DNA of 64,000 nt, taken from assembly GCA_009746045.1 (NCBI GenBank), contig RPFO01000065.1, positions 2,167,484 to 2,231,483 of the forward strand, in the 5' to 3' direction. Origin of the DNA: Mesostigma viride. Lineage: Eukaryota; Streptophyta; Mesostigmatophyceae; Mesostigmatales; Mesostigmataceae. Within the stretch, counting starts at the first letter, position 1, and every line of letters starts with the position of its first letter. Shown piece after piece: positions 32,912 through 56,486 of this stretch. The translations under genes and the position numbers were made by a program. Under the pieces are notes generated by a model, which saw only the letters and a program-made list of their open reading frames with translations, was not told the DNA's origin and searched no databases.

Positions 32912-33050
32912 GGGTGGTCCCACGCGGAATGGGGTCATTTTTGGCGCATTTTGCAAGAAAAAAACGCTAGTTTCAATCGTCCGATCGCGTTTTTTCGCGC
33001 GAATTTGGCGTTCGATCGCGTATTTTCGTGCTAATTTGGTGTCATAATGC
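32912..33050 (+). repeat. BIG left terminal inverted repeat
   Basis: GGGTGGTCCCACGCGGAATG onward. It can be read as a short ORF (GWSHAEWGHFW...EKNASFNRP) that resembles the right end (GWSHAEWGRFLQEKNANFNRP). This is a by-product of the DNA inverted repeat, since gypsy homology ends at the TTCA. Confidence 0.88.
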
Positions 33051-33208
33051 TTAATTCATGTCAATTTGAGCGTACATTCCACATCGAGAGGCTTGAAAGT
33101 TAGTAATTCATGTAAATTTTACGTGGAGAGACTCTCGAGACATCATCCTAACTTTGTATTAACCATAGGACGAGCATTGCCAGCGCATGTCCAAGTGCTA
33201 ACTTCCCC

Positions 33209-33773
33209 TCAAGCTTTCGAGGGCCTCTTCCGTAATTTCGCTTCCGCGATCTGCTGTTCCGTTTTCGACTTCCTCCTCTTGCTATCGATCTCCTTTGCAG
33301 GCGCCCAGACTTCCACATCCTTCCAGCTCTTGCTGCATCCGTCAGCTTTACCACCTTCATCGCGTAGTCCAGCGGCATCCACCACAACTTGTTCTTCAAC
33401 TTCCCTCCCTTCTCCCCCTCAGCGAAAAACTTGAATGCGACGTCCCTCCACTTGGTGTCGTATCCAGACACCTGCCCATAAAGCATGACGTCTTCTAGCT
33501 TGGCATACATTGGCGTAGCCGTATCCTTGTTCCCTGCTTGCATAATGGCTGAAGTCCACCCATCACACCAAAAGGCCTCTGGTGCTCCGAACCCCATTTC
33601 CCCGTCCATAAGTCTCATTTCCAACGTGGGCTTCTCATCATCCTCATCGCCCGCCTGACTGTCTTCCGCCCCCTTAGGCTCCTCCCGTCCGGAAGTGTCA
33701 GCATGTACAGCCGCTGGTCCGAAGCCCACCGCCACATTTGCCAAGCGAAGTAACTGCTCCACATCCTCCTTAC
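33209..33773 (-). CDS. BIG gene 1, last exon
   Basis: Starts after CTCGCAG, in phase with the previous exon (KEKAKKG joined to KEDVEQLLRLANVAV) across a 123-bp intron (33896-33774). Reads PTLEMRLMDGEMGFGAPEAF, WCDGWTSAI, WWMPLDYAMKVVKL, then after one frameshift SWKDVEVWAPAKEIDSKRRK to a stop at 33211-33209. The Trp-rich segment looks folded; no family recognised. Confidence 0.6.
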
Positions 33774-36700
33774 CTGCGAGCAAACCGATCATGCCATCAA
33801 CGCATGACTAAAATCGAGTTAGTAGAAATCGGACTGCCAACCGTAAAAAATCAAAACACTCTACATACCAGAATTCACTCGCAGATTTTTTCTTACCCTT
33901 TTTGGCCTTTTCCTTCGACCTCTGCTCGCAGGTAGACCCCGTCTGGGGTGGGGGGCAGGCGCTGGGGCGGGTTTGGCGGGCTCGGCAACATTGGCAGTCT
34001 TCGCGGTCTTGGGTAACTTCTTGGAAGCAACGCGCTCCTTTCCCCCGTCCTCCTCCTCTCCGCCGCCATCCTCCTCCTCCTTCTCCTCCTCATCGTCCGA
34101 ATCTGAAAGCACAACTGCTTTTCGACGCCGTTTCTGAGGCAGGGCAGGCTTGGCAGCCTTCCCCACCTTGGCCGATTTCTTGGAAGCAACGTGCTCCGCA
34201 CCCTTCCCACCCTTTGCAGATTTCTTGGTAGCAACGTGCTGCTCCTCCTCCTCCTCCTCCTCCTCCTCCTCCTCCTCCTCCTCCTCCCCTCCTCCTCCTC
34301 AGCATCGTCGTCGTCCTCCTCCTCCTCCTCCTCAGCATCGTCGTCCGAATCAGCCACTGCCACAAGTTGCTTACGAAGCTGCTTCTTCGGTACCTGAGAA
34401 ATGGGCTGAGTCCGCGGGGGAACCCGAAGCTGCTTCTTCGGTACTTGAGAACTGGGCAGAGGCGCCGGGGTGGGCAGAATCGGCAAGGGAACCCGAAGCT
34501 GCTTCTTCGGAACCTGAAAAACGGGCTGCGGCGCGGCAGGCTTGGAAGGCCCACCTCCATCATCCTCAACAAGTCACACGACTGCCCGTCGAGTCACTTG
34601 AGAAGCGGGCTTCTTCGAAGCAGGCGGATCCGCATCACCTTCAGGCCCCGTTGACCATCTGTTCGGCCTGCTGCGTTCTCACCTCGACGGGGGTCTCTCC
34701 GCGGTTAGACCCTCCTGCCGGACCTCCATCCCCTCCATCCCCTCCCTCCAACAACTGTTGGTCATCCCTCTCCACCACGGCGGACAATCCCCCAGCTTCG
34801 TGGGAAGCTTTTCGCTTCTTCGCCCTTCCGAGCCTAGGCCCCCCATCATCTTCCCCCCGTTCAAGCCGCTCCCACAATTCAGTCCCAATCCCGATCCTTT
34901 CCGTTATCTCTAGAAACCCCTTAATCTCCGGCCTGGTACCAAACACGATCACCATCGGTTCGAACCTGGAGAAAAACTCTTGGGCGCAAGCCTTCAGCAC
35001 ATGATCGTAGATCCCGCCCGGTTGGGGAATGTCCGATTCTGGCGGGCAATGACCAAACGACCACCACCTCTGAAAGTTACTCCACTTATCACCCCAAATG
35101 TTCGCCAAGTTCAGCAGGCTCAGGCACGGAAGGGACCTGCCCAAGGGAAAGTGGTGGGCTGAAGCTGAGGCAACCTCGCCTGCCACCTGCTTGACGAGCG
35201 ACTCGTCCTCTTTATCACCGAGGAGGACGTGACAGCAAAACCAGACCCGGCGACGGCCCCAGTCCACACTACGCCACTCATACACAACGTCCCACTCCTC
35301 CTTCCCCTTCGCCTCCTCCTCCTTCTTCGCCTCCGTCTCCTTCCCCTTCCCCTTCCCCTTCTCCAGCCCCTTCACCGGCCCCTTCATCGCCGCCTCCTTC
35401 GGCCCCCCTTCGAGTAATCCAACTCTTTTACCGTACTTCATGAACGCTTCCGGAGCCAAAAGTGCCAAACCCACCGTCTTGTCCTCGCTCTCTTTTAGCA
35501 GAATCTCCTGAAAGTCGATCTTGCCATTCATGAGATCCTTTCTCGGAATCCTCAGATGTGCGGCGTGTTTTTTGGCTTTAAGGGGAGGTGGCACCCCAAA
35601 AACCTTAAAATTTGACATATGCTAATATCACTTGAAATTCATTTGCACAATGCTGAATTATGATTGGGGGCACTAAATAACATCTCTAGTGAGTTGTCCA
35701 TGCACTTGTTGGGGTACTACCCCCATATATACTTGATCCCCCATATATACGCCAATAATGCGCTATAAATAGCAAAAGACGCTAATTAGGGCTGGGTATG
35801 CCCCAGCCAATGCACTTATTTGTTGGCTACCAAAAATCAAGGTCATATAGTTCCCTGAGTTTGTAGCTTGCTGAGCTATTTACATCATGGAAATGGCAAA
35901 ACCTTGAACAGTTATTAATTTTCCCGCAAAACAGGTCATTTTTTACCGGACATTGAGAATAAACACATCATAAACACTTCCGATAAGGCCACAAAATCAA
36001 CAAAAATTCCGGCTAACAGGGGGACAGCAGTGTTCCAAGTCCCGGGTCATTCCGACAAGTCTAGCTCAAGTTATTGCGTCAGACGTGTTTTCAGAAAAAT
36101 GCCCGCTAAAACAGAAAATGTCACTATATCAGCCCTTGTAAGCATCCTGCACAAGGCAGGCAGGGCAAAACCAATCCCCCTTGGGCTCCTTAGTCAACGG
36201 GGGTCAGCGCAGCACCCATGCAGTCCTCCCTTGCACCCGGATGTGCTGCACAGCAGGAAAGGGACACCGTCAATTTCATCCGGGGACGCACATGCAAGGC
36301 AAGGAATATCATCAACATCATTCTCATCATCACTGCTACCTTCCCCATCGCCCCCCTGCCCCTCCCTTTGCATCACGTCGTGACAGCCACCCTTAAAACT
36401 GGTCATTCCGACAAGTCTAGCTCAAGTAATAAGGTTATGCGTGCTAAAACCTGAACATAAGCTTAAGGGGGTTTTTCTTTGTATATGGCCACTTAGGCAT
36501 GCTGTTTTCCATCCAAAAAGCCAGAAAGCATGCCCCACTCAATCACAAAACATAAGCAAACGGCTAGGCACCACATCTGCCCTCACCTGCCCTCGGCATG
36601 GCCAACCTTGCCAGCGCAAGCATAGCAACACGATCGCTAGGCATACATGCCAAGAGAGCATACACTATACTCTACCCAAGGTTACCTTGTAAACTTCATG

Positions 36701-39700
36701 CCAAGAACTCAGCAAATCTATGATCAACAGCACATATAGTTAACTCTAGCACACTGATGACGACACATGCTCAAGGTTGGGGGTCACTGTGGCACGCACT
36801 GATGGGTTTCCTAGACGACCACTCACCACCTGACAAGGCGCTAAGGACCACTCAGAAAGCAAGTAAACAAAATCACACTTTTCATTCCATCCAACATGCA
36901 TCAAATCCATGCTGAATATGTTATGAAGTACAAAGGGGTGGCCACGCACCTCATACTCCTTCACCGTCCCTCGAGCATGGCCAGACTTATAAGTACGTGA
37001 ATAGCAATAATGATGATGGCACTAACATGCATTACCAGCATTTTCTATGTTTCTCCCAGGTTAGAATGTAAGGGTTATGCCAACCAAGCTTACCAACACA
37101 GCAACAACTCCTTAACTGCCCTACCCGACATGGGCAACAAACTGGAACTATGGAGGGCAAGGAACCAAGGAGATCATGGCATACAAAGCTTGCATGCAGT
37201 CAACCATGTCAACCATGGTTAGCTCAGCACATTGCTGTCTTGTCACATCATCATAACAAGGAAAGCTCAAAAAACCAATGATGGCAGCTATCTACATGCA
37301 GTCACACAAACGCAATATCTCCAACATGGTCGTCGATAAAAAAACTTCCTTCCCTACACGATCAAATGCAAAGAAACCAGTGGCGGCCGTTCAGCTTCTG
37401 ACCGCTGTGATGCCGCTGCGAGGAAAGGGTTCGTCACTATCACACAACAAGAAGCGTCCATACGCACAACATCCTTGCCAGAACACGTGCTATGAAATCC
37501 CTTACGCCTTCCCTAGGATCTATCGGCTGAGACTGAAGCGGATTTGATCAAGACATCAACGAAAACAAGCTAAAGCTGCCAGGTATTCGTCAACACGACG
37601 GCGAGCAACGGAGAGTTAACTGGCGGAAACTGACCAAAACGAACGCAAAAAACTTCGAACGATGAGCTCTTCGAAGAAAGAACTGATAGTAGATAACAGT
37701 CGCCACAAATCTATACCTTGCCCTCGTAGATCCCTCGCCCAGGCGCGCAACAACGGCCGTTCTTCCATGGAAGGTTCCGACGTGCACTGCGCAGGCCTGA
37801 AGAATTACTTACCGAGAATGGCCGAAAATGTAGCAAAAAGCACCAGTTCGGTTTGGAAGTCAATGCTACCGATATTAATGCATCCTTCACGATCAAAAAG
37901 ACCCCCAAAACTGAGAATTTACTGCCGCTATCACGAATTCTATTTTATTCCGCGCGACCAAAAAATGCAGTTTACCCCCCATGCCGATGGCAGTAAAAGA
38001 AAGCAGCGATATTGTAAACCAGCTACTTGCCGCCACAACCCAACATCATTAAATCATCGTATTCAACATTCGAGCAATTTTTTGGCATTTCTCTAGCCCT
38101 ACATTGCTAGTTTCGCCTAAACGCAGTCGCCATGGCCACTTCCGCAAGTGGTGCGCGCACGGAGCACCCACTTTTCACGGTACGGCCGGTACCGCGAATT
38201 TTTTCGCGCGGAAAATATTCGGCGCGCCACGTCCCCTTAAGAAGGTAGGCGATGTTCCTCGTTATGATGACGGCCACATCCCAAAATTCCCGGTATCTGG
38301 CCACAATCTCCTTCCTGCCGACCGGCCGAGGGAGAGGATGGAGATTGAAGACGAGTTCGAAAATATGAGACGCCACAAACTCCTTGCCATTTGCGTCCTT
38401 GCATCGCGCTTCCAGCGTCACATCCTCCTTGAATCTGGCGCAAATGGTCAGCCGCAGGCACTCCAGCACATCCTTGGCGATCTCCACCAACTTGGTGAGC
38501 TTTTCCGGTCCAACCTGGCAGCTCATGATGCAATCGATCACGGCGTCCATCATAGGAAGGCTGGCCAAGTTCCTGAAAGAAGTCCAAGAGACCTTCTGGC
38601 CTTTCTTCTCCCCCTCTGCATTCGCGAATTTGCACCTTTGCATCATCACCTCCTCAGGCGCGGGTTTCGTTGAGGCAGGATCATCAGTCTGCTCCTGTGT
38701 CAGACGGAGAAACGTGTTGGCCAGCGTGCGACTGTAAGCGGAATGCACTGAAGCAATGCTGTGGGCCGGCTTTTTCTTTCCTTCTGCTTCCTCCTCGTGT
38801 ACATCCACCCCTGCCGGCTCCACATTCCCTTCCCTTCCCCCCGCTTGCCGCATAGCCGGGAGGATGTACGTGAGCAGATTGGTATAGTGGCCATCCGCAA
38901 TATAGTGGCCCTTCCCACGCGTGACTTTGCCGTATAGATATAGCTTGTTGTAGTTCCACACGTCAAGCAACGCCTGGCCCAGCGTACGATCCGCCACGGC
39001 TAAGTCCTCCGAATTCGCCCCCTTGGCGATGTCGAACAGCTTCTCCAGCTTGCCGGTCAGCACCGCCTGCGACATCAATTAACATCGAGCGAGCAACGAC
39101 AAAACTCAGTCATAAAAGGCGAGGGGTATAGCTGCGGATAGACCCTAACAAAATTCGAAAAAGAAACGGCCGACAATACGCAACGAAAATTCCAACAAAA
39201 AAAAGGAGAGGGTCTAGCTGCAGCGAGACCCTCGCAAAAAACTTGAAGCGCACACAAAAAACACCACGAAAATTCCGAGGGTCTACCCGCAGCTAGACCC
39301 TGCCAAAATAGATAGCTTACATCTTCTTTTGCTTAGGTAGATTTCGCTGCTCACTCCACGACGGGAGCAGGTCGCCACCCTTGAGAAGAATGACATTCGT
39401 ACCCATGTAACCACCACGGAATTTCCGCAACAGGTCCTGGAATGCGTGCTCCGCCTCCTTAGGAGTGTTTGCGAAATTGGACTCCGCCCCACCCTCGCAC
39501 ATCATTGCCCGAACCTCTCCCCACCCGCCATCCGGCCCTGAGAAACGACTTTAACCCCTTAAAGTAGTGGTTCCATCCACCACCGCGTACCGGAGAACCA
39601 GATACGGTACCGGTACCCGTTCCTCAAAAAATTTCGGATCGTAGGACTTCATCGCAGTATTGCACAGCAGGTTGAAACATCCCGACTGCCCTGGATGTCC

Positions 39701-42700
39701 TGAGGCAAAGCTGCTTCCACCTCGTCCACCCTGGCGTAGGTACGCCACTCAAGTCCTCTCGCGAGGAAAGAGGTGGTGGACTCCGTGTTAAGCCACACGT
39801 CGACTTCAGTATCCGAAAGGGGCCGGAAGTACCTGGACCCCACATCCTCCGCGTCAATCTTGGCGCCGTGGTGAATCTTCAGCCACTTGACGAAATCCGG
39901 CATGCACAAGATTTGCTTGTCGAACAGGTCAGGTTGAGATTCGGCAAGCGCCTGGAAAGGGAACTGCCAGACCGGGACAACAACCTTGAAGTGCAAGCTG
40001 TTGTCCCGCGCATTGAGGAGAATGCGGCCGTTCTCCTTAATGGTTTCAAGGTTTAAACGCCGCTGCCTCAAAGCCTCTGGCAAAATAAGCGCGTTGACCG
40101 TCTGGATCCGCATACTGAAACATCCGGTCTGCTTAAAATCGGCCGGCCGAATCCAACGCGTTTCCCTGAGAGAATTGGCCTTCCGGATGTTCTGGTCCCT
40201 GACCTCCTTGTTCGAGTCGACCTTTTTCGAAGGCTTCCAGCTTTCAATGATAGGGTCGGTGTCCGGGTTCCCACTGCTCGTGAGCACCCCCTCCTTAAAA
40301 AGCTTGTTGAGTGACCGGAGCAGCTCAAGAAAGGGGGAGAACTCGGGCCAGTTTGGCAGGTCATCGACGTCCGCCATCCGCCTACTCGAGCAGTACTTGA
40401 GCATATCCTTCACCAGCGCGAACACGGCGTCATGACCAGGTAACTTCTTCTCCACCGTGGCGTCTTCGTCCCCCCGTCATCCTGAAGTAAAAAATCGAAA
40501 AGGACCGCAGGATTTGCTCAAGTCAGTAATATTTAGGCCGACCACGACATCCTGTTCAGGGACGAACAAAGTTCTGTTGGAATAATACCTTACTGACACT
40601 AAACACCAAGTCCCGCAGCCAGTCAGCGTCTACCCGCAGCGAGAGGTCTAAATTTTCACAACAATCGTACCTGTCCAGTTTTCTGCTGCTTCTTGGCCTC
40701 CTTAGCCTTCTCCTTCTCCGCCTTCTTCGCCTCCTTCTCCGCCGCCTTCCTCCGCGTTCTTCTTACTGTTAGCCTTTGCCACCGCATTCAGCGCCCTTTT
40801 TCCCTCAGCGGCCCGACGACGAAAATCAGACTTCATGAATTTCTCGATCTTGTCAACCTTTGCCTCTGAGTACTCCTTAGGCTGCCACTTGAAATTCTTG
40901 GTGGCTTTCGACTTCACCAGATTTACAAATTCATATGCCAATTCACTTAAAGGTAGCGGCACCCAACACCTCCGTATCGAAATCGGCATCGACTTCCGCC
41001 TCAAGTCGTGTCAGGTACTTGCGAAACTCGGACCCCGCAGGTCCCTCCGAATCGACGCCATCGGGCGGAGACTTAAGCATGATCAGGCCAACAGCAATAA
41101 TATGATCCTTCGCAACCTTCTTGCGGGAATCCAGCTTTTCCCTTTCATGCTCAGTCAATCGGGCTTCGCCGCCTTCCCCCCCGCAGTACCCCCAGCGACA
41201 GCCCCCGCCTGCATGACAAAAAAAAACGAACAAGAAGGGACTTGACCTCAGTTCGATTGTTGCACCATCGTCTCTCTGCGGAGATACCCCTCAGCACGAA
41301 AAAAATCACACGAACTCGCGGCGGATGAACGTACCTGCACAGCCACTTCTCCCTCAGCGTCTCCCCCATCCTCATCTCCTCCAGCGTTTTCATCCCCCCC
41401 ATCCTCATCTCCTCCAGCGTTTTCTTCCTCTCCGGCAGCGCCTGCTGAGGCCAAACCCCCCACCTGTCAACACCGAATACGACAGCTCATTGGAAATCAA
41501 AATTAGTCGACATTTGTATATTTCGCATAATGCGCTCACTAAAACTTCAGGCGAAATGCAGACATCCGGATATCGTTTAATGCTTACCATTTCCATCTCG
41601 AGTCCAGACCAAAGACCAGCACTGTCAACAGCCATCGCCGCAGCCGCCCCCTGAAAAAAGACAACAGATTGGTGGGGGCACCGTTGAAATTAGCCGAAGA
41701 TGTCAGTCTCAATAAAAGGGTGAGGGTCTACCTGCAGCTAGACCCCATGTAAGATGCTCGTGGAAACTCGACGGACAAGCACCCACCTTATCAACCAAGT
41801 CTGACAAATTCGTTACATCCTCCGATACGTCCCCTGGCATGGAGCCCCCCTGCATGATATGACAGGACAAACCATGAAGGTTGGTCAGCATATAGAGCCC
41901 TATTCAGGGAATGGAAACAAACCAAATCGATAAACGATATCGGCAAGTTAACGTACCGAAACGTAGAACTTCCACCTCCTCAAAATCTTCCCCAAAGGCC
42001 ATATCGGCACTTGATGGGCTCTCTCCTTTTCCAGATTACGCCTCAATTCCGCCTCGAAGAACAACTCGAGGGACTGCCAATGGCCTCCCGCCTCTAAATC
42101 AGACCACTCCGTGTCTAACTTGGTTCGGATACTCTGGAGACAATCAACCAACGAGATTTGATCCAACCATTCCTGGACGACTTCCCGGTGTGGCTTATAT
42201 GTCTGAATAACATGGAAGTCCCCCGGTGCCGGAAACTTTGGATCACCTGTCCAGCCCAATCCAAAAAGAAAGCGACCGCTTCCCGCGAAAGGCTGGCGTC
42301 CGGGCTGACAAGAAAGTCGGTCCGCCACTTAACAAAAGATTGCAGTAAGTGGTCTCTTGTCATGTCCAAATGCGCGATCACTTCATGTGCGCGCTCCTCC
42401 AATCCTCCTACGTGATTCATTCTTCCCGGCACAATTACGATAAAGTCACTGTTGGACATGTCAACAAATCCTTTCCTGACAATATCAAACACTTCATCTT
42501 CCGACAGTGAAGCCCTCGAATCCGCTTTCATATCTCCAGTCATGAGTTTAAAGAGCTGATGCAACGCAGTGATTTTCAAGGTTTCCATATAGGAAGCCTC
42601 GAAATGTGACGCCCATGTGGACCTCGAACTTTTCAACCTCATCAAAGAGCGTCGACCATATTAAAGCACGACGGGGAAAGTAACGTCCGACATCCTCCTT

Positions 42701-44391
42701 CAGATTAAGGATGCACGACTGCGCGATCTTCAAAACCTCATAAATGTCGTCACCAACGACCCTCTTCCCATTAATGGCTCGCTGTGTGGCTTCGAACAAT
42801 GCAAGACGGCCCAGGCGGTCGTTCTTCCAAATTATGTCTGCCGACTCCGGACGGTCCACGACGACACCGGACTTCTCTGCAAACGCTATCTCGGCCGAAA
42901 GAAAGCGGATCAAGCCGATCAAGCCCTTTTCGGCTTTACGACTCGCCCCAGACTCAGACTCAGCCTGAGCCAGGTACTGTTTCAGAATGGCCACCGTGGA
43001 GGGCTGCAGACAACAAGAGTAAAAAAAAGGCCACACATCGTCGTCGTCGTCGTCAACAACCTTAACTCCTAGGTCAACGTCTCTCCGCAGATAGACCCTT
43101 ACGATCAAAGTATGACATAAAATCCCACCCTTTCTACGATACACACACGCCGTTCAAAAGCCATCTGAGAAATGTACGTCTCACATAAATAAACATACCT
43201 GATAATCGACTGAACATCCTTCGGGAGCCCACCCCTTCTTCACGTTCTCGTCCTTCTCCCCCTCAACCGCCTTCGCAGCCTCCTCCTCCTTCCTCGCAGC
43301 CTCGTCCGCCTTCATCCTCTCCTGTCGCATCTGCAAAAAAACAGCAGCCTCCTCCGCACGAAGTCCTTCGCTGCCGCCTCCGTCTTCTTCTTCGCCTCCT
43401 CCTTCTGCTTCGCCACCAGGATCCTGTGCTCCTCTCCTGGGCAGCCTTTTTCTCCTTGTACTCCCTCTCCTCCTCCTCCCTCTCCGCCTTCTCCAGCCTC
43501 TCCTTCTCCTCCCTCTCCACCCTCTCCCTCTCCGCCTTCTCGATGGCCTCCCTCTCCGCCTTCTCCTTCTCCTTGTCCTTCTTGTCGAGAGCCGCGTAGT
43601 CGTCAGCAAATGTTGCGGCCATTGCTAACAAATCGGACAACAGCTCCGACGCGACTCCCGAACCGGCGAGTCCGGGTCTTCAGGCCTCCCGTTAGTCTTA
43701 TCGCGCTCGTCCTCCTCAAAGCCAGATTGATAGACTTCCTCAGCTTCCTGAGCTTTTGGTGTGGTCGTCTTCCTCTACCCACTCGGCGCAGGCTTACGCT
43801 TAGAACTGGAATGCTTGGGGGACGGCGAGCGGGACGCAGAAGCGGGGGACTTGGGTGGCGGCGAGCGGGACGCAGAAGCGGGGGACTTGGGTGGCGGCGA
43901 GCGGGACTTGGGGAAGGAGAGCGGGACGGCGAGCGGGACGCATTTGCGGGGATCTTGGTTGACGGCGAGGGGGACTTGCGAGAAGGAGAGCGGGACGCGG
44001 TAGCGGGGGGAACTTTGGGCGGAGAGGGGGACTTGCGGGGCGGCGAACGGGTCGCAGTTGCGGGGGACTTGGGGGACTTGCGGGACGGCGAGCGGGACGC
44101 AGTAGCTCCGGCCGACTTGGGGGCGGCGATGGAGACTTACGGGGCGGAGAGCGGGACGGAGCGCGAGACGCAGCAGCGAGAGAGTTGGGGGGTAAAATTC
44201 TGTCCAACTCGCTGGGGGGCAAGGAAGACTTGGAGGGCAAGGGGGACTCGGTGGGGGGGACCTCGCCAGAGCATTTACGGGACCGACCGGCAACCGAGGA
44301 AACCTGTTGCCGTTCGGTCCGGCGAGGTGTTCGACGTCATCTTGGGTGAAACGGGAGTGGCCTTGACAGAATCGGAATAGGAGGACGACAT
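33209..44391 (-). CDS. BIG gene 1: large multi-exon Lys/Glu-rich protein of unknown function
   Basis: Exon blocks (-) with GT-AG borders: 44391-43203, 43003-41957, 41849-41787, 41650-41588, 41463-41335, 41210-about 40670, about 40487-39321, 39066-33898 (interrupted by element B), 33773-33209. The four borders around the three small exons (21, 21 and 43 codons) are all phase 0. Frames inside the large exons shift several times, mostly at runs of G or C. The protein has a Pro/Ser-rich repeat N terminus, a charged coiled coil, a globular middle without recognised domain, an acidic/basic repeat region (QVPKKQLR, DSDDEEE) and a basic C terminus ending KLRKRPSKA. No catalytic motif was recognised. 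It faces away from gene 2 and makes up the left arm of BIG. A structural or DNA-binding partner of the transposase is one guess. Confidence 0.6.
33893..34620 (-). repeat. Low-complexity acidic/basic repeat coding region
   Basis: Includes three or four copies of a roughly 60-bp unit encoding QVPKKQLR, a (CCT)n run of about 16 units at 34236-34288, and two VASKK/VATKK copies. The alternation of acidic runs with Lys-rich motifs resembles chromatin-associated proteins; no specific function can be claimed. Confidence 0.75.
33898..39066 (-). CDS. BIG gene 1, long exon interrupted by TTAA element B
   Basis: From 39066 to the TTAA at 38237-38240, then from 35581 to 33898. With one TTAA the first 1767 bp form 589 in-frame codons. 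Seen: AVLTGKLEKLFDIAKGAN, a helical Leu-rich domain (LASLPMMDAVIDCIMSCQVG, LVEIAKDVLECLRLTICARF), then LRIPRKDLMNGKIDFQEIL, a Lys/Glu linker and WSNFQRWWSFGHCPPESD. A low-complexity tail follows with at least three QVPKKQLR repeats (plus strand 34370-34520), poly-Glu from a CCT/TCC run at 34240-34300, and VASKK repeats. Frameshifts near 34650, 34570 and 33950. No known domain. Confidence 0.62.
35578..35581 (+). other. TTAA target duplication, left of element B
   Basis: Pairs with TTAA at 38237-38240; one copy restores the gene 1 exon (N-I-A-Y-L-L-K-A-K-K across the site). Confidence 0.9.
35582..38236. mobile_element. TTAA element B: non-autonomous DNA transposon inside BIG gene 1
   Basis: 2655 bp between TTAA copies. 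Left end GGGGAGGTGGCACCCC and right end (reverse complement) GGGGACGTGGCGCGCC. It shares blocks with element A, including CTTGTTGGGG.TACTACCCCCA, the CCATCCAAAAAGCC region and the ACGGTACGGCCGGTACCGCG / AAAATATTCG right end. Contains GGTCATTCCGACAAGTCTAG twice (36046 and 36402). No transposase ORF found; small ORFs are unconvincing. Confidence 0.88.
38237..38240 (+). other. TTAA target duplication, right of element B
   Basis: Second TTAA copy at the gene 1 exon border. Confidence 0.9.
39067..39320 (-). other. Intron with three copies of the BIG palindrome
   Basis: GTAAGC...GTCGCAG intron of gene 1. It holds palindromes near 39120-39150, 39208-39233 and 39277-39302 (types GGGTCTAGCTGC.., GGGTCTCGCTGCAGC.. 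and GGGTCTATCCGC..). All keep the outer GGGTCT/AGACCC arms. It shows best that the palindrome family is spread through intronic sequence. Confidence 0.75.
39321..40487 (-). CDS. BIG gene 1, exon with MEKKLPGHDAV-type domain
   Basis: Acceptor near 40488 (TTTTTTACTTCAG). Reads KKLPGHDAVFALVKDMLKYC, LPNWPEFSPFLELLRSLNKL, RWIRPADFKQTGCFSMRIQT, NARDNSLHFKVVVPVWQFPF, FVKWLKIHHGAKIDAEDVG, then after a shift near 39690 DPKFFEERVPVPYLVLRYAV. A final part reads KEAEHAFQDLLRKFRGGYMG and ends at 39321. It looks like a compact alpha/beta domain but I do not recognise it. Frameshifts occur near 40470 (run of six C on the plus strand), 39690 and 39550. Confidence 0.58.
40670..41210 (-). CDS. BIG gene 1, helical exon
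   Basis: Reads RLTEHEREKLDSRKKVAKDH, GLIMLKSPPDGVDSEGPAGS, EFRKYLTRLEAEVDADFDTE, then after a shift LSELAYEFVNLVKSKATKNF, KWQPKEYSEAKVDKIEKFMK and a Lys/Glu tail to the donor near 40669 (CAG|GTACG). The shift at the 5' end falls at seven G (7 C on the plus strand, 41176-41182). One extra base would keep the frame. Confidence 0.55.
41335..41849 (-). CDS. BIG gene 1, three small phase-0 exons
   Basis: Exons 41849-41787 (21 codons), 41650-41588 (21 codons) and 41463-41335 (43 codons). All have clean GT-AG borders and whole-codon lengths. The third encodes a duplicated acidic unit, ENAGGDEDGGD. The intron 41786-41651 carries a palindrome at 41726-41750. These unshifted exons are the best proof that gene 1 is a real spliced gene. 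Confidence 0.72.
41957..43003 (-). CDS. BIG gene 1, globular exon
   Basis: Reads PSTVAILKQYLAQAESESGA, GLIGLIRFLSAEIAFAEKSG, VVDRPESADIIWKNDRLGRL, GDDIYEVLKIAQSCILNLKE, then after shifts near 42595 and 42250 HQLFKLMTGDMKADSRASLS, FLVSPDASLSREAVAFFLDW and YKPHREVVQEWLDQISLVDC. Ends KFYVS|GTACGT. Largely alpha-helical by appearance; no family recognised. Confidence 0.6.
43203..44391 (-). CDS. BIG gene 1, N-terminal low-complexity exon block
   Basis: ATG at 44391 directly follows a CTGCAG acceptor-like site, so the true start may be this ATG or lie in an upstream exon. Encodes SSSYSDSVKATPVSPKMTSN, a Ser/Pro/Arg region with tandem SPPPKSPASASR units (43835-43900), then an acidic linker and a long Lys/Glu coiled coil (KEKAEREAIEKAERERVERE). 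Ends YQ|GTATGT. Several frameshifts in the repeat parts. The SP-rich repeats resemble SR/CTD-like disordered regions. Confidence 0.5.
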
Positions 44392-44466: not shown

Positions 44467-44932
44467 GAGGGTCTCGCTGCAGCTAGACCCTTTCGTGGAT
44501 TCTAAAAGGGACATTTACTTTATTGCAAAACTTTGGCGTCTCGCTGCAGCGAGACCCTCACGTCAAGCAAAAACAAATCATTTTTAGGGTGAGCAAAAAA
44601 AGCAACCTCCCATCATGCAAACATAAAAAGTATACATTCCTGAAGGTCTCGCTGCAGCGAGACCCTAACGTCAAACAAAAACAAATCATTTTTAGGGTTA
44701 GCGAAGAAAGCCCCCTCCCATCTTGCAAACATTAAAAGTCGACATTCGTAGGGGTCTCGCTGCAGCGAGACCCTAACACCGATACAAAAACAAATCATAA
44801 GGGAGAGCGAAGAAAGCCCCCTCCCATCTTGCAAACATTAAAAGTCTACATTCGTAGGGGTCTCGCTGCAGCGAGACCATTACGTCAATACAAAAACAAA
44901 ATTCCGAGGGTCTACCCGCAGCGAGACCCTTA
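44467..44932. repeat. Tandem repeat block carrying the BIG palindrome
   Basis: About four units of 107-110 bp (starting near 44535, 44644, 44752 and 44859), each with GGTCTCGCTG + CAGCGAGACC followed by AAAACAAATCAT and TCCCATC(T/A)TGCAAAC. Single palindromes flank it at 44467-44492 and 44907-44932. It lies just upstream of gene 1 and may be its regulatory region or an internal transposase binding array. Function is inferred, repetition is seen. Confidence 0.85.
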
Positions 44933-44984: not shown

Positions 44985-47440
44985 TTTTTCATGCCAGCAC
45001 CCCCCACATTTATTTATTCATGCCATCACACCCCCACATTCATTTATTCATGCCAGCACCCCCCACATTTAATTATTCATGCCATCACCCCCCACATTCA
45101 TTTATTCATGCCATCACCCCCCACATTTAATTATTCATGCCAGCACCCCCAACATTTATTTATACGTAGCAGCACCCCCCACATTTAATTATTCATGCCA
45201 TCATCCCCCCACATTTAATTATTCATGACAGCACCCCCCACATTCATTTATTCATGCCAGCACCCCCCACATTTATTTATTCATGCCATCACCCCCCACA
45301 TTTAATTATTCATGCCATCACCCCCCACATTCATTTATTCATGCCATCACACCCCCACATTCATTTATTCATGCCAGCACCCCCCAACATTTATTTATAC
45401 GTAGCAGCACCCCCCACATTTAATAATTCATGCCATCATCCCCCACATTTAATTATTCATGACAGCACCCCCCCACATTCATTTATTCATGCCAGCACCC
45501 CCCCACGTTTACTTATTCATGCCATCACCCCCCCACATTTAATTATTCATGCCAGCACCCCCCCACATTTATTTATTCATGCCATCACCCCCCCACATTT
45601 AATTATTCATGCCAGCACCCCCCCACATTTATTTATTCATGCCATCACCCCCCACATTTAATTATTCATGCCAGCACCCCCCAACATTTATTTATACGTA
45701 GCAGCACCCCCCACATTTAATAATTCATGCCATCATCCCCCCACATTTAATTATTCATGACAGCACCCCCCACATTTAATAATTCATGCCATCATCCCCC
45801 CACATTTATTTATTCATGCCATCACACCCCCACATTCATTTATTCATGCCAGCACCCCCCAACATGCATTTATACGTAGCAGCAACCCCCCACATTCATT
45901 TATTTATGCCAGCAACCCCCCACATGTATTTATTCATGCCAGCACCCCCCCACATGCATTTATACATACCATCCCCCCCCACATGTATTGATACGTAGCA
46001 GCGCCCCCCCACATGTATTGATACGTAGCAGCACCCCCCCACATGTATTGATACGTAGCAGCACCCCCCCACATGTATTGATACGTAGCAGCACCCCCCA
46101 CATGTATTGATACGTAGCAGCACCCCCCCACATGCATTTATACATAGCATCCCCCCCCCACATGTATTGATACGTAGCAGCACCCCCCCACATGTATTGA
46201 TACGTAGCAGCACCCCCCCCGGCACATGCATTTATACATAGCATCCCCCCCCACATGTATTGATACGTAGCAGCACCCCCCACATGTATTGATACGTAGC
46301 ATCCCCCCCCACATGTATTGATACGTAGCAGCACCCCCCACATGTATTGATACGTAGCAGCACCCCCCACATGTATTGATACGTAGCAGCACCCCCCACA
46401 TGTATTGATACGTAGCAGCACCCCCCCACATGTATTGATACGTAGCAGCACCCCCCACATGTATTGATACGTAGCAGCACCCCCCCACATGTATTGATAC
46501 GTAGCAGCACCCCCCCACATGTATTGATACGTAGCAGCACCCCCCCACATGTATTGATACGTAGCAGCACCCCCCCACGTGTATTGATACGTAGCAGCAC
46601 CCCCCACATGTATTGATACGTAGCAGCACCCCCCACATGTATTGATACGTAGCAGCAACCCCCACGTGTATTGATACGTAGCAGCACCCCCCCACATGCA
46701 TTTATACATAGCATCCCCCCCCACATGTATTGATACGTAGCAGCACCCCCCACATGTATTGATACGTAGCAGCACCCCCCACATGTATTGATACGTAGCA
46801 GCACACACCCACATGTATTGATACGTAGCAGCACCCCCCCACGTGTATTGATACGTAGCAGCACCCCCCACATGTATTGATACGTAGCAGCACCCCCCCA
46901 CATGTATTGATACGTAGCAGCACCCCCCCACGTGTATTGATACGTAGCAGCACCCCCCCACATGTATTGATACGTAGCAGCACCCCCCCACATGTATTGA
47001 TACGTAGCAGCACCCCCCACGTGTATTGATACGTAGCAGCACCCCCCCACATGTATTGATACGTAACAGCACCCCCCCACATGTATTGATACGTAGCAGC
47101 ACCCCCCGTGTATTGATACGTAGCAGCACCCCCCCACATGTATTGATACGTAGCAGCACCCCCCACATGTATTGATACGTAGCAGCACCCCCCCACGTGT
47201 ATTGATACGTAGCAGCACCCCCCCACATGTATTGATACGTAGCAGCACCCCCCCACATGTATTGATACGTAGCAGCACCCCCCCACATGTATTGATACGT
47301 AGCAGCACACACCCACATGTATTGATACGTAGCAGCACCCCCCCACATGTATTGATACGTAGCAGCACACACCCACATGTATTCATTCATGACAGCACCC
47401 CCCCACATTTAGTGATTCAGGCCAGCAACCCCCACATGTA
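44985..47440. repeat. 2.45-kb minisatellite in the centre of BIG
   Basis: About 80 units of 29-33 bp. Left part (to about 45950): CACCCCCCACATTTAATTAT-TCATGCCAG type with higher-order order. Right part: CACCCCCCCACATGTATTGA-TACGTAGCAG type, more homogeneous. The C run varies from 5 to 8. A 482-codon ORF across it is a repeat artefact (AATYQYMWGG). The array sits between the two divergent gene arms. Confidence 0.95.
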
Positions 47441-48560: not shown

Positions 48561-48957
48561 TAATAAATTTTTTTCTGCACATCTACTGAAATCAGTCATA
48601 GCACCAAACGGTCACGCTGCAGCGAGACGCTATAGCCCTGGAGGCCGCTGATAAACCTGCCATCCGGTATGTCTTACTATTATAGATTGCCGAACTATAA
48701 AATAATAATACTGTATACCACTTTTTCTTGTAAATGATTTCCTAAATAATGGTTCTATATACTTTAACATACCATATTATTAAAGTATGTGGAAATTAAT
48801 CCATGCTATTCACAATATATTATAAAATCTTTTGCAAAATGTATTAGTATAATATTTTCTAATAACCGTTTTATCAATGCTACTGTGATATTTTTGTTAT
48901 TCCCGCCATGCAGGTATCTGAGTGTCCTGGGAGAACTAATAATGTCTATCTACCTGG

Positions 48958-50728
48958 AAAAAGGCCTCAATTGAGGCCTTTTCATAAATTGGGTGTTGCA
49001 TGTAATTACAATGAGCCAACAAACTTTATTCCAAATATGAGTGAAGGCCATGCATTATTATGATTGTTTTGGGGTTCCCAGCACTTAACATCAGTCATAT
49101 AGCCCTAATACATATTTAATTATGATTTAATAAAACAGGTTGTCGCTGCGACGGCACCATCAACACAACATGACAATAGACACAAGCGACCAAAAGGTGT
49201 CAGTACTCAGTTCCATCTGCATGTAACGTGTCTTTTGGACCTTACGAGGTTCCCCCACGACATGGTAAGCATGGCATGACATGGCATGCTCCCAAGGGAC
49301 CCCTCACACACACTTGCACGGCCGGGGCTGTCGCGCAGCACTGCAGGCAGCAATAGCCTGCCATGGGTATTGCACGTAACCATGAGGAATCCAAAGCCTC
49401 TATTACAAACACGCACAAGGATCATGCATTATAATGATAGGTGTGACCTTCCAAGCGCGTAGCTTCACTCACATAGCCCCAATATCTAGGTTGTTACGGT
49501 ATATTATGACAGGGGTTTGCTGCCGCGGCAGCAGATGAACAGCACATGGCAAGATATACAAGCATAACTGGACAACATTTGCACAGCCTACTAGACCTCT
49601 TAGCTTGATTTCGGGCTTTGCAAGGGTTGCCTGAGACATGGCCAGCATGGCAGGAACTGCCATGCTTCTTATGGAAAGCAAACACGTCTATAAGGCGGGG
49701 GCCAGCCGCAGAGCACTGCACGAAGTACTGTAACCTGCCTTACGTCACATCGGCACTAGGCGCCGATAGGCAGCTAAAAACTGACGATATCACAAGCAAA
49801 TCGATGCCATTACCTTACTACCACCAGGACGCACTTACCTTTCACACCCCTCACACCCGGGATCACTAGGCACGCATATGCGCTGGCGCTGAACGTGGCT
49901 GCATTAGAAAAGCTGTTCAAGCTCGGCGTTTTCAAGTTGTCCGGAAGCGATGCAGCCCGCAAATCTGGCCGGACAGACGCTCCATGCGTCGTCCATTGAC
50001 GTATGAAAGCGGCTGCAGCGGCCTCACCAGCGCTGTTCGCATAATGGCGCTCCCATAGCTGGGGGCGCGCGCGCGTTTATTGTCCGCATCCCAGTTTTTC
50101 CTAGCTAAAACACCCCTTCCTCTACCTACGGATCCACGCCAAAAGGCTCGGAAATAGCCAGTGCCCCTTTAGTCACGGCTGCCCCAACATCCCCCCCGCC
50201 GTTCCGCTAGTCTCTTCCCAGCATATCGAAGCACCGGCCTGCTGGCAGGCGCACTATCAACGCCAATTACGCCCCAGCTGAATTTCACTAACCTGGCATT
50301 CAGCACACAAATAACGACCCCACGAATTTAGAAACTGACTTCTGACCCATTTAGCGATCGGGCTAGCTTCACGGATAAATTATCTACCCAACGAGCTCCT
50401 TACTGGTCGAAATGATGCACGAACGTGGCCATACGGTCTATTTTACTCGAGGCCGCCATGGTCGTGCATTCGTGAAAATTCGTCGTCCGGTTGCACGACA
50501 GTGGGCCAAAAATAGGTTACCTTTTCCACCTCAACATATCTTTTCAGTAACGTCGACCCTGGTCGACCCCCACGGGTCAGGACGCTCAGCAACATATACC
50601 ACGAATTCGCGCGCACTGGGGGCGAGACGACCCATAGGACCGGGTCCTTCCCGCCAAAATTACCGTCCCCTTCATGTGGACCTTTGGTGAAAAGGCCTCA
50701 ATTGAGCCAAAGGCCTCAATTGAGGCCT
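48958..50728. mobile_element. Element C: palindrome-ended insertion (tentative)
   Basis: 1771 bp between CTGG at 48954-48957 and CTGG at 50729-50732. Both ends carry the palindrome AGGCCTCAATTGAGGCCT, and both share CTCAATTGAGGCCTTTTCA reading inward; the right end has an extra copy. No transposase ORF. Near the right end, ATTACCGTCCCC followed by TTCA resembles the terminus of the TTAA elements. Borders are uncertain. Confidence 0.5.
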
Positions 50729-50740
50729 CTGGGTAATGGA

Positions 50741-51100
50741 GCAATAAGAGAATGAGGCCGCGAAGGTGAGGAAAGCCTGGAAATCATTTTCCGTCCTTAT
50801 TGGGGTCTCTCTGGCAGCTAGACCATTTCTAACCACAAGCATAGCTTAATTCAAGGGTCTCGCTGCAGCTAGACCCTCGTTTATGGTTACTATAAAATTA
50901 ATGAATCAAGATGTCTGTGGATTTAATCAATCGCACGCCGCAATGAAGGGTCTAGCTGCAGCGGACCCCAATCTTGGTTGGGGTATGGCTAAGTTCACCG
51001 CATCCGGTATATCTTTTCGTCTAAGGAAAAAGCCCCTTTAAGAGGTCTATGCTGCAGCTGACCCCAATTCGTGGTAAAATGATACAACTTTCGAACTTTG
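50741..51100 (+). other. Intron-like region with four palindromes
   Basis: A possible donor GTGAGG at 50767 follows WSNKRMRPR-like coding sequence. Palindromes near 50801, 50857, 50948 and 51040. No ORF. It probably is an intron or 5' region of gene 2. Confidence 0.45.
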
Positions 51101-51189
51101 TCTGTAAATTGTCGGCTTTTCCCAACTGAATACTCGATTTTCATGGATTTCGTTATGCCGGTCGTCATGGCAATGCAGCACGCGAACGG

Positions 51190-54100
51190 GTGGGAGTTTT
51201 TCCGCCTTGCGTCGGTCGTCCAGGATTCAGTGCAATTAAGTTTAAACACCGGGACGAAGCAGCCAACTGGCGCAAAAAGGTTTTCGGAGATGAGAACCAG
51301 AATCCAGCGCAGCCTGAAGCCAAGGAAGTCAAGCGGCGGGAGAATACAAGAAAGCCAAAGAGGGTTATTGGGGAATTTTTCGCTGACAAGGCGTTTGAAG
51401 CGGCTCAGGCGATGACAAAACCCGAGGGGCGGGGCCGGCATTCGAGCAGATGATTGCTGGCTTTAAACTCTAGGGCCGTGAACTAGGTCACGGGCTGTAT
51501 CATGAGGAGGCGAAAAAAACTTTTACAATCAGGATGGATGGCAGAACTGAACAGGTTCGGGTGGCTCGGATTAACGCTTTTTGTGGTCTGACAAAAAGCG
51601 ACCCAGACAGAGACGTCAGAATGGTGCTGATGTCCACGCTTTTACTGTGGTGACGACTTGGAGAAGGAGTTTTCGGCCGCGGAGTTGGAGAAGCTGACGG
51701 GGACGGACGCCAAGAAGATTCGCGGTGAATTCGCGCGATTCGAAGGCAGCAGAAGCTGACTACCTCAGACACGCGCAGGCTCGCCAGGGGCGCCCTGTGC
51801 CGCAATTCGTGATTGACGGCGATAGTCGGATATACGCGTGGATGCACGATGATGAGTCGCGCGCCTCCTCCCAGATGAAGGATGTCAAGCGCACTTACAG
51901 CAGGGAGGGTCATGGCAATCGCGGGGTGCTCGTCGCCGTTGAGGGAGCGCGCTATTACATGACTCCAAGGAGGACATGTACAATCACTTTCTCGAAAAGC
52001 ACGCGTACTGGAACAAAAGGAGTGACCAGTATGATAAGGACGGGGCATTCACGTGGGCTACACGACCTTCTGCAAATACGCGCCCGATTGCATCAAGGGC
52101 AAGTGGAAGGAGAGAAACCTGTGCGCGTGTGAGAAACACGTCACCATGCAGTCGGCCATGGGGCGTGGACCAAGCACTGCAATGCGAACCACGGCAAGAA
52201 CTGCAAGTGTGGCGCGGAGTGTGCGGGATGCTCCAAGTACAGACTGCCGGACGGTACTTGCGGAATGTGGAAAGCCATTCACTCGACGGGACTGGATCAA
52301 GCACTTTCACTGCCCGGTGTCCGCCGAGACTGACGGCAGGGATAACGGGCTGCGTGAAGGGGGCGGAATGGGCGGGGGGATGGAAGAGGGGGAGGGGGAA
52401 GATGAATGGCGGGGACGGGACCTGGAAGACCTCGACATTTCTGAGAGGCTGGTGGAGGACGAAGATGGGGTGCCGAGGACGGAGAGGGTTCACCGCATGC
52501 TGAAGATGGCGTGTGTGGAGGGGTTCTGTCCTGAGGAATCATGCGGCATCCATAATAACTGGGTGCAGTGTGATCGGGACAAGAATTCCACGGAGATTCT
52601 GAATTGGTTCAAGTTCGAGATGGTGGAGCAGACTGTGACCCGAGGGGTGAGGGTGAGTAGATTTCGATTTCTTTTCTCCGCGTTAAAATGTTGTTGACTT
52701 TTTGTTTTTGTGACCTATAGCTGCAGCGAGACCCTTTGTGAGTTGCAGTTATCTGATCGAAATGCGATTTTATTGCAAATCGAAACTTTTTGCGGACCTT
52801 TGCGAAACAGGGCGAGACCGATGGCAGGGCGGCGAAGAAGGTGAAGCGGCCCGAGCAAGTCCCAATGAGGTCCACCCCAGCTGAGCTGCGGGACGAGATT
52901 CTTAAGAGGTGGGACAAGTTCACCGTGCACTGCTTTACGGCCTGGTCGCAGGCGGATACATCAAGGATCGGGAGAAGAATCTGAGAGAGGGGGACGTGCT
53001 CGTGCACGGCGACTGGGCCGAGAACTACGAGAACAGCAACTACGTCCAACTGCCAGTCGCAGTACTTCCACAAGCGCAGCCACATCCTGATGCCCATGAT
53101 CGTGTAGCGCGTGGCGGTTCTATCGGCTCCCAACGGCCGATAGGCTCGGAAAGCGCGTCTTCTGTTTCTCTGGGGGATTCATGGTATCAACGCTGCCGGG
53201 GAGAGAAAGCGGGACGCACGCTCCGCTTTAATACGTCTCTTCGCAAGATTCTCGGGACGCTGTTGGCCGGGGGAGTAGAGAGAATCAAGGGGTAGGAGTG
53301 GTTTGGAAAGCGTGTACTACAGAGGTGTCGAGAAGCTCGGCGCGGGACAGTTTAAAGTGATTCCAGAACGGACTGCCAGGAGGGACGCCGCCGATGCAGG
53401 CCGAGTCGCACTACGTGGAGATGACAAGATGGAGCCGATACAAGACAAGTCAGTCGTCTTAGATGGGCCTGAAACCTAGACATACTTGAACCAGGCACGC
53501 TAGGCACGTTCTAACCGAGTACTGGCAGGGCAAACATCGAGCAGGGAGTCGGCCCGCGCGGGCCGAGAACGTCACTCGCCACTTCTTCTTTTCCCCCGGT
53601 ACGGAATTTCCTGTTATTTCAGGTTTTAAGACGTCAACTGCCGATGTCTACAAAAATTCAAACCAATAAAGGTATCTCTGCAGAGAGACCTATATACTGT
53701 CAATGGGTTGCTTTTCTTTTAGGTATGAAATTTCTATAGTTCTATCGGTATGAAGGGGTCTCTCTGCAGCTATACCCTGTGTCGATTTTCGATCACTTGA
53801 TATCTTGTCGTACGTTGTTATTATGATTCGAATGGGGTCTCTCTGCAGCTATACCCTGTGTCGAATTTTGATGACTGTATGTCTTGTCGTTATTTTTTTT
53901 TTTTTGTAAGGGGTCTCTCTGCAGCTATACCCTGTTTTATTGATTTTTGGTCAATTTTGCTAACTTGAACGGTATTCTTTTTGTCCTAACTATTTGATGA
54001 CAGGACGTCGAGTCCGGCCGACGCGCGGAGGTGGAGGAGGTGCCTGGCATCAAGCAGGCGCATTGGTGGCGACTGGACAAGTCCGACCCTGGCCTTTTGA

Positions 54101-54754
54101 TGATTAGGCGCTATTCCTGCTACTGTCCGCCCTGTTTGGCTGGGCGGTTTGAGGGATGTCTAAGCGAGTGGTCGTTTATCATCGAGTTCAATGATGCAGG
54201 AAGCTCGATGAAAACTGTCCGTTTGCTGCCACCGAGCCAGCCCAACCCTCCGGTTCGCATGGTGACGGCGGGGGAGCAGCTGAAGGACAAGCGGGAGGCG
54301 ATGGGCCGGCAGATGAGACTCCACGACTATGTGGCAGTTCCATCGGACAAGGACACGGATCACGATCCCATCCACCCGTTCTGGTTGGCTGAGGTTGTAA
54401 GCGAAGCCGGGCCGATCGTGTTAGACGAGAACTTTGAGAGGTGGGTCGAGGGCCGGAACGGACGGGAGAAGGAGCTGTCAGTCCTCGCCGGGAATGGCAT
54501 TCTTCCCGTTCGGATTTGGAAGCGGGATAAGCATGACCCCCTGCATTTCACGCTCAACGTTGAGGATTGGCCACCGTCACGCCAGCCCGAGCTTGTGAAT
54601 TGCTATCTCTGCGTCGCTCCGGCTCTCCGGCTAGAGCAGACGCGTGCGCAGCGACGGAATGTGTGCCGACATCAGGATGAGCAAGGAGCTCGACAAGTGG
54701 CTTACTGCGCTGGTGATCAAGGATGAAGCCCCGGAGGGGCCGGCACCGACTTAA
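51190..54754 (+). CDS. BIG gene 2: Cys-rich GDWAENY protein, candidate transposase
   Basis: Coding blocks near 51190-51450, 51500-51770, 51780-52650, 52812-53110, 53300-53480 and 54003-54754, with introns at 52651-52811 and 53480-54002. N-terminal part: KFKHRDEAANWRKKVFGDEN and TFTIRMDGRTEQVRVARINA. Then CKYAPDC, NLCACEKH and a Cys-rich segment CNANHGKNCKCGAECAGCSK. A zinc-finger-like CGKPFTRRDWIKHFHC follows, then the Glu-rich linker, GFCPEESCGIHNNWVQCDRD, LRDEILKRWDKFTVHCF, KDREKNLREGDVLVHGDWAE-NY and QYFHKRSHILMPMIV. C-terminal exon: SCYCPPC within LLMIRRYSCYCPPCLAGRFE. I associate W..F..H.F...Q....DFAENY and later S-C-x-C-x2-C motifs with uncharacterised, probably transposon-derived proteins of invertebrates and protists. 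The Asp of GDWAENY could be catalytic; this is inference. Several frameshifts. Confidence 0.6.
52651..52811 (+). other. Gene 2 intron with palindrome
   Basis: Donor GTGAGG/GTGAGT near 52646-52660, acceptor GCGAAACAG near 52811. Palindrome CTATAGCTGCAGCGAGACCC at 52718-52737. Confidence 0.6.
53481..54002 (+). other. Long gene 2 intron with four palindromes
   Basis: Acceptor TTTGATGACAG at 54002. Palindromes near 53672, 53757, 53835 and 53910; the last three share GGGGTCTCTCTGCAGCTATA and are 75-78 bp apart, a small tandem array. Confidence 0.65.
54003..54754 (+). CDS. BIG gene 2, C-terminal exon
   Basis: Reads EEVPGIKQAHWWRLDKSDPG, LLMIRRYSCYCPPCLAGRFE, GCLSEWSFIIEFN, KTVRLLPPSQPNP, HDYVAVPSDKD, PIHPFWLAEVVSEAGPIVLD, then after a shift near 54625 MSKELDKWLTALVIKDEAPE and a stop at 54752. 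The HPFWLAEV segment resembles a BAH/Tudor-like beta barrel opening (V..D..HPFWLA.V), common at the end of related transposon-encoded proteins. One frameshift only. Confidence 0.65.
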
Positions 54755-55258: not shown

Positions 55259-55578
55259 ACTTATTTGCCGGGCGCAGTTGTCATTCCGCCTAGTACAATT
55301 GCGTCACTAGTACAATTTTTGTCTGGGTACGGTACGAACCAATAACGCAATATTTAGTATCTAATCGCCGCTGCTCTTGCTGAATTTTAACCGGAAGCTG
55401 AAAAAGGTGTCCGGTGAAGCGAATAGTAGTGACTGGTGGTCGTGCCCTTCCATTACTCCTTATCGACAAATTTTGGGTTCTACCTGCAGTGATAACCCTT
55501 GCGCGTCTGGCTGTCGGGGTCACCAATTTCCTGTCGATTGCAAGCAGCCAAGCTTGCCGAAATTTAACACTGTCACAA

Positions 55579-56016
55579 ATGGAGCAGAGCGATATTTTCG
55601 GTTCTCAGCATACCTATGTGATGGTCGACAAAAATGAGCACGCTGCAAACATCAGAATTGATGTAGAGTTGCTCGGACCTTCTGCACAGTGGGGTGCAGG
55701 TGTCATTGCGTTCGGCAATGGCATGATCGATCTGGTGCCACCCGATTCAGATTTGAACCCTGCTTACCAATGCGTGCCTGACAATCGGGCGAGAGTGGTG
55801 GTGGAGAGCACGGAAATTCCGGGCTCTCCCAATGTATCAATGATGCGCCTGAGGGCTGAGGCCCAGCAGGAGTTCCTGGCTGCTGCGGAGAACGGCGGGG
55901 CCAAGTGGAACACCAAAATGTATACAGGCGAGCCTCCCAACTACAGGGAAGACCTGTACCAGGGAGTGTACTCCTTCGGCGATTTTGACATCGACGGATG
56001 GGGCACCTTTTTCTAG
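55579..56016 (+). CDS. BIG gene 3: small protein near right end
   Basis: 145 codons from ATG 55579; the frame is open upstream to 55414, where an exon may begin after the palindrome at 55478-55502. Reads SDIFGSQHTYVMVDKNEHAA, NIRIDVELLGPSAQWGAGVI, AFGNGMIDLVPPDSDLNPAY, RARVVVESTEIPGSPNVSMM and YSFGDFDIDGWGTFF to the stop. Beta-rich, no known family, no Cys cluster. It is the last gene before the right terminus and is unshifted over its whole length, which suggests it is functional. Confidence 0.6.
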   Translation: MEQSDIFGSQHTYVMVDKNEHAANIRIDVELLGPSAQWGAGVIAFGNGMIDLVPPDSDLNPAYQCVPDNRARVVVESTEIPGSPNVSMMRLRAEAQQEFLAAAENGGAKWNTKMYTGEPPNYREDLYQGVYSFGDFDIDGWGTFF

Positions 56017-56339
56017 GCGCAATGCCTAAGTTGTCAAATACTCGACAATGTCGACTTTATGTGCACATATTATTTATATTCATTGAGAATGATAAAATTA
56101 CGGACATGTGCACATTATATACTGATTCAATAAAAAATTTCGGCAATTTTTTCCGGCATTGATAATCAAAAGCTGCTAGCAGGCCAAGGACTTCAAAAGT
56201 GGCAATAGATCGATGTAGGTCGTCGCTAAACTTGTCTAGTCGTCATATTTCGGTCGCAAAATTCGTGCGTGGCCTGCAGGCATCGGACAAAGTGCACGCA
56301 AAAGCAGGAATCGGTTGAGTTCGAAGCACGGCAGACAAA

Positions 56340-56486
56340 AAAATTCGGCGCAAAGTCCGTCCGGCGAAAAATTCGCTCGGCTGCCAAATTTTCGGCAAGA
56401 ATTTCGGCGCAATGTCCGGTTTTCGGACGATTGAAATTAGCGTTTTTTTCTTGCAAAAATCTACCCCATTCCGCGTGGGACCACCC
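56340..56486 (-). repeat. BIG right terminal inverted repeat
   Basis: On the minus strand GGGTGGTCCCACGCGGAATG, then GGGGTAGATTTTTGCAAG and AAAAAACGCTAATTTCAATC. Pairs with 32912-33050. Confidence 0.88.

Follow-up and report, generated by a model that had tools for sequence, protein, structure and literature searches.

The 64,000-nucleotide stretch of Mesostigma viride DNA analysed here (contig RPFO01000065.1 of assembly GCA_009746045.1, forward-strand positions 2,167,484 to 2,231,483; referred to below as the window) carries an insertion of 23,575 bp, spanning positions 32912-56486, which very probably belongs to a family of giant DNA transposons, natively of about 19 kb, that move by cut-and-paste with their own multi-exon DDE-type transposase and have been mobile recently. 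The same ends occur at many other loci, flanked by exact 4-bp duplications, the window copy contains two nested transposons, and another copy, on contig C2111, retains an open transposase core. While giant elements of this kind are known, the private module of palindromes and satellite that this one carries is unusual.

Both ends of the insertion begin with GGGTGG, in inverted orientation. The left terminal inverted repeat (32912-32984, plus strand) and the right one (56423-56486, minus strand) share 24 identical bases (GGGTGGTCCCACGCGGAATGGGGT), and with gaps of 1 and 10 bases the alignment between them extends to 75 columns; a preliminary description of the window, made from the sequence alone, had given 24 identical bp and about 75 bp with a gap. 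It had also placed TTCA on both sides, and comparison of the flanks locates this target duplication at 32908-32911 and 56487-56490. The insertion interrupts the pol frame of a gypsy element on the minus strand, leaving the C-terminal part on the left (32251-32911) and the N-terminal part on the right (56487-58007). In these halves the Pfam models Chromo (C-terminal part) and Integrase_H2C2, the integrase zinc-binding domain (N-terminal part), scored above the cut-off, with SH3_Tf2-1 and rve, respectively, just below it, in agreement with the gypsy integrase and chromodomain described before. When the insertion was excised in silico with a single TTCA kept, the pol frame was reopened over 726 stop-to-stop codons; the open join reported previously therefore stands, and the length of 723 codons given for it was close.

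The search for other copies by their termini, suggested in the preliminary description, covered 440 Mb of genome and found the same ends at other sites. The left-end query returned 472 candidates, and all 40 of those scored had at least 97% identity; the 30-mer of the right end occurred exactly 211 times genome-wide (97 forward and 114 reverse), and its reversed control never. Comparison of the flanks, likewise suggested, revealed an exact 4-bp duplication in 19 of the 21 copies paired at both ends, which upholds the earlier view of the insertion as a gene-carrying DNA transposon; these pairs were chosen non-randomly, by the presence of both ends on a single contig with a plausible spacing. 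The 19 duplications comprised 18 different words (TGCG being present twice), with no target consensus visible. Among 17 predicted right ends that were retrieved, 12 had the same sharp boundary as the window copy. The other five (C47, C1458, C1912, C887 and C876) showed no terminus there; C47 was later paired with a different right end, and C1458 is represented by a left end only. Three further copies (C1435, C1890 and C1324) had no exact right end in the first stretches taken, that of C1890 being found later.

Recent movement is seen in the short members of the family. Contigs C1691 and C2133 carry copies of 10,314 bp (duplication TGCT) and 10,562 bp (duplication TGCA). Only 3 substitutions, a gap of 1 base and an insertion of some 247 bp separate the two, and from this near-identity it follows that the family moved recently. 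Both share their ends, parts of gene 1 (described below) and the palindromes with the window element, and DNA comparison with the window element, by which they were judged to be transposase-less, found no match to its transposase in either; they do hold unexplained open frames of 190-194 codons. Presumably such short members are mobilised in trans. Nine more pairs of 10.2-10.7 kb, placed by their ends and known from these alone (C280, C429, C335, C69, C80, C1347, C36, C1413 and C1368), all had exact duplications. Five of these nine measured 10,313-10,314 bp, as C1691 does, as if a single non-autonomous master had spread recently.

The length of 23.6 kb given in the preliminary description was correct for the insertion and too large for the native element, the size being inflated by two nested transposons. 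The first, of 2,654 bp (35583-38236), is flanked by the 5-bp repeat TTAAG and is missing at that place in C1435, C1890, C2111 and C1458; the second, of 1,800 bp (48943-50742), has the 5-bp repeat AATAA and is missing there in C2111 and C1458. Because C1458 holds a 91% copy of the second nest elsewhere on the contig, this nest is an independent transposon. Subtracting both nests and their repeats leaves a native element of about 19.1 kb, and the C2111 copy, at 26,618 bp, carries other insertions. Outside the element, positions 31500-31955 resemble by eye the right end of the first nest (...CGTCCCCTTAA) and may represent another member of that transposon family.

The putative transposase is encoded by gene 2 (51143-54754, plus strand; start and stop set by eye), a multi-exon gene with a Cys-rich region, a core with the motifs DWAENY...SDNC...HGKGEVDG, and a C-terminal exon from about 54001. 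In the window its frame is broken by small indels clustered at about 53100-53560, which contig C310 does not have, and by upstream frameshifts that are not present in C2111. The indels of this patch are dense relative to C310, with clean sequence on either side, and the patch is apparently an uncorrected long-read error in the assembly rather than decay. In C2111 the frame is open through the Cys-rich region and, after an intron, continues with the core DWAENYE...SDNCAVQFK...GEQHGKGEVDG. A search of about 5.8 billion proteins, which requires shared 5-residue words and similar length and thus misses distant or much longer relatives, matched this core to a metagenome protein (P0001) at 49% identity over 99% of the query, and a profile built from the two sequences added only one relative, a fragment from Prorocentrum lima (P0002). 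The three have 37 aligned residues in common, including an identical GEQHGKGEVDG. Acidic residues are conserved in order (D...D...E/D) between C2111 and P0001, the region of the third acid being common to P0002 as well, and the two aspartates and the later acid would be ordered as in a DDE/D transposase. A protein search with the C-terminal exon returned no match, two scans of IMG/VR viral contigs found no relatives of the core, and none was present among prokaryotes, represented by one genome each of 84,980 species.

An unusual part of the element is a 20-bp palindrome, GGTCTCNCTGCAGCNAGACC, which is present in the window at 21 sites with up to 3 mismatches, where a shuffled sequence would give 0.07. 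Twenty of these, between 39125 and 54786, are intronic or intergenic according to the layout of the open frames, and start at 39125, 39211, 39280, 41725, 43078, 44470, 44537, 44645, 44753, 44859, 44909, 48610, 50856, 50949, 52714, 53671, 53757, 53836, 53912 and 54767; the remaining one, at 34692, is weak and lies inside an open frame. Repeat analysis identified a palindrome array with a 108-bp period upstream of gene 1 (44537-44928), next to a central satellite with a 30-bp period and 82.6 copies (44995-47440). The preliminary description had listed both a central satellite and a palindrome family belonging to the element, and both were recovered: all 21 sites are within the element, with none in either nest and none in the 40.4 kb of flanks. 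Genome-wide the fully palindromic form has 393 exact sites, against none for its reversed control, and 13 of 18 clusters among those listed were in the right order and at most about 25 kb from a listed element end.

Palindromes are also retained in other copies, with 23 sites in C2111 and 22 in C1458 (in the stretches read), and 22 in each of the transposase-less C1691 and C2133. In C1691 they form two inverted arrays, each adjoining a satellite with a 30-bp period that differs in sequence from that of the window. Across four copies, substituted or gapped positions numbered 9 of 1,160 in the palindromes and 200 of 5,444 in adjacent noncoding DNA, and substitutions alone 9 of 1,160 and 133 of 5,444, so that the palindromes change three to five times less than their surroundings; this test left out the weak site at 34692, in the open frame, and included a weaker one, with 4 mismatches, at 41269. 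Since the palindromes are confined to the element, have changed less and are kept in members without a transposase, they are probably binding sites acting in cis, and together with the satellite they probably behave as a retained cis module.

On the opposite strand lies gene 1 (33205-44391, minus strand), a multi-exon accessory gene with a charged, repeat-rich N-terminus, a start placed by eye at 44391 and a last exon at about 33205-33765. Its exon limits were taken from frames that are also open in C2111, and in the window the gene is interrupted by the first nest. No convincing family was found for gene 1 in Pfam, PHROGs or NCBIfam, the matches of the main open frames being weak and mostly low-complexity (for example phrog_34140, E 0.041). 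With Pfam, at E values of up to 10, gene 1 matched neither a ParB nor a methyltransferase profile, no DPPY-type motif was spotted by eye, and a VVDGNHYF motif was likened to the ParB signature by eye only. A single-sequence model of one gene 1 exon was too poor for use of its fold (predicted local distance difference test score, pLDDT, of 37.6), and two scans with gene 1 pieces found no relatives in viral contigs. A fourth open reading frame of 145 codons from its ATG (55579-56016, plus strand), open in C2111 too, may be a separate gene.

How these parts might work together can be outlined as follows. The product of gene 2, presumably with an RNase H/DDE fold, would act at the inverted GGGTGG... 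ends and make a cut in the target with a 4-bp stagger, and the members of 10.3-10.6 kb without a transposase would be mobilised by it in trans. The palindromes may serve as cis sites for a protein encoded by the element, either a complex of the transposase or the product of gene 1, and once bound they could help to unite the distant ends or mark the chromatin of the element. More specific, and considerably more tentative, is the idea of a module resembling parS, in which some 20 dispersed palindromes and the satellite would be bound by an element protein and act in transposition, in copy control or in marking the element's own chromatin, and transposase-less parasites would owe their survival to the ends and the pair of inverted module copies that they retain. 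Bacterial ParB/parS, as far as published descriptions of it go, is similar in that a single genetic unit contains repeated short palindromes, to which a protein of the same unit may bind; it differs in that gene 1 has no ParB profile, the element is an integrated eukaryotic transposon and not a replicon, and binding here is putative.

Several observations weigh against this interpretation. Part of the 211 right ends may belong to duplicate haplotype contigs, and two of the 21 pairs had mismatched flanks (TCCA/AGCG in C662 and TTCA/GGCA in C310). The transposase core has no convincing match in Pfam, PDB or NCBIfam, that to 3byi in PDB being weak (E 0.71), and AlphaFold gave a poor model of P0001 (pLDDT 46.7), the RNase H/DDE fold being an inference only. 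The ratio of nonsynonymous to synonymous substitution rates (dN/dS) ranged from 0.38 to 2.90 over nine exon stretches in three to five copies, most at about 1% divergence, and has no power. Regarding the palindromes, the signal of constraint comes from C2111 and C1458, since C1890 and C1435 differ too little to contribute. The sites for this test had been selected for their agreement with the consensus in the window copy, a choice that biases the outcome towards constraint.

Two other explanations are far less likely. The large size, several genes and inverted ends could also belong to an endogenous virus or a Polinton-like element, and an acidic low-complexity stretch gives weak matches, all below the cut-off, among them two to virus families, Pox_Ag35 (E 0.0037) and Nucleo_P87 (E 0.56); however, no PolB, integrase, capsid or packaging gene scored above the cut-off in the element frames scanned, the four scans of viral contigs (the transposase core and pieces of gene 1 each serving as query in two of them) found no relatives, and the duplication is of 4 bp whereas that of Polintons is of 6 bp, all of which makes a viral origin very improbable. 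Even less credible is an assembly artefact joining gypsy halves from different loci, which the preliminary description had named as what would overturn it. The assembly seems to contain chimeras, the small contig C310 joining the left flank of the insertion to another right flank, but the TTCA copies match, the frame is open across the join, and 18 other paired copies have exact duplications.

More evenly matched are the explanations that concern the superfamily of the transposon. Target duplications of 4 bp are common to Sola, Ginger and Chapaev elements, and Sola1 in particular makes them. By analogy Sola1 appears to be the likeliest superfamily, although we have not filed the element there, and we regard it as an evenly balanced proposition that this is a Sola1 element related to Sola1-1_Ec32, with gene 1 as the diverged form of its ParB/methyltransferase gene. 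In the accessible part of its description, Sola1-1_Ec32, from the brown alga Ectocarpus, measures 21.5 kb and encodes ParB-like and DNA methyltransferase domains in one gene of the opposite strand (PMC12477816). It is the nearest published element that we found, likened to ours by description only: both are giant, with similar native lengths, nested insertions and a long accessory gene in opposite orientation to the transposase, and the transposases of such giants are often broken. The VVDGNHYF motif of gene 1 could be added to these likenesses, whereas the ParB-like and methyltransferase domains of the Ectocarpus gene were not found here by profile at the threshold given above, the DPPY-type motif was not seen, and the exon model was useless in this respect. 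A literature search on Sola1 transposases and 4-bp target-site duplications returned no paper. Possible but rather doubtful is a new superfamily of cut-and-paste transposons, separate from those described and common to some algae, here the source genome and a dinoflagellate. It would fit with the lack of anything convincing in Pfam, NCBIfam and PDB, with just two relatives in the word- and length-limited protein search, and with the absence of relatives from IMG/VR and the prokaryote species scanned. Pfam is not known to include Sola models, and a lack of matches there accordingly has little weight; in addition, 4-bp duplications are not peculiar to this element, and animal proteins may carry DFAENY and HGKG motifs.

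Other known groups are less similar. KDZ duplications are longer than 4 bp, and Pfam holds both KDZ and tnp2-type models. Pfam, with E values of up to 1, gave no KDZ transposase domain in the core and C-terminal exons (for the Cys-rich exon, broken pieces from the window were used), these exons had no tnp2-type match, and the ends, GGGTGG rather than CACTA-type, do not begin with CAC as in EnSpm/CACTA elements. Ginger elements share the 4-bp duplication, but their ends begin with TGT, and the gene 2 exons scanned gave no rve (gypsy-integrase-like) match, rve being seen only in the flanking gypsy element; Ginger transposons are treated in PMC2836005. The preliminary description had considered the insertion unlike the usual families, which holds in that no superfamily emerged from Pfam, PDB, PHROGs or NCBIfam, and fails in that giants have been published from Ectocarpus. 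These include KDZ, EnSpm and Sola-1 elements, generally longer than 10 kb with a maximum of 30.3 kb; most of them contain nested insertions, many have additional genes, and their transposases are frequently broken, according to the accessible text of PMC12477816. In size, accessory genes, nests and non-autonomous giants, the KDZ and EnSpm members are thus similar to the present family. No word beginning with 'palindrom' occurs in the text of that paper.

Some features of the window and genome are separate from the element. Positions 19864-25917 form a single open frame of 2,018 codons that matches a reverse transcriptase of copia type (RVT_2), and positions 2128-5609 hold two overlapping frames of a retrotransposon without long terminal repeats (non-LTR), with endonuclease/exonuclease/phosphatase and RVT_1 matches. 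The right flank in contig C310, a contig which looks chimeric, is 92% like positions 3719-4203, in this non-LTR element. Elsewhere in the genome, a search for EsV-1-7 domains (PF19114) scored 150 matches out of 500 candidates, while 14 control genomes had none; these domains form tandem arrays in long open frames, of up to 1,328 codons among the matches listed. Brown algae have seen a proliferation of this domain, which apart from them is known mostly from giant viruses, according to the accessible text of PMC12477816.

The family bears on two questions, namely by what means a transposon of some 20 kb unites its ends and which purpose its extra genes serve. It offers many copies, exact boundaries, near-identical movers without a transposase and apparently constrained private palindromes, and with these the requirements in cis for the transposition of a giant element can be tested directly.

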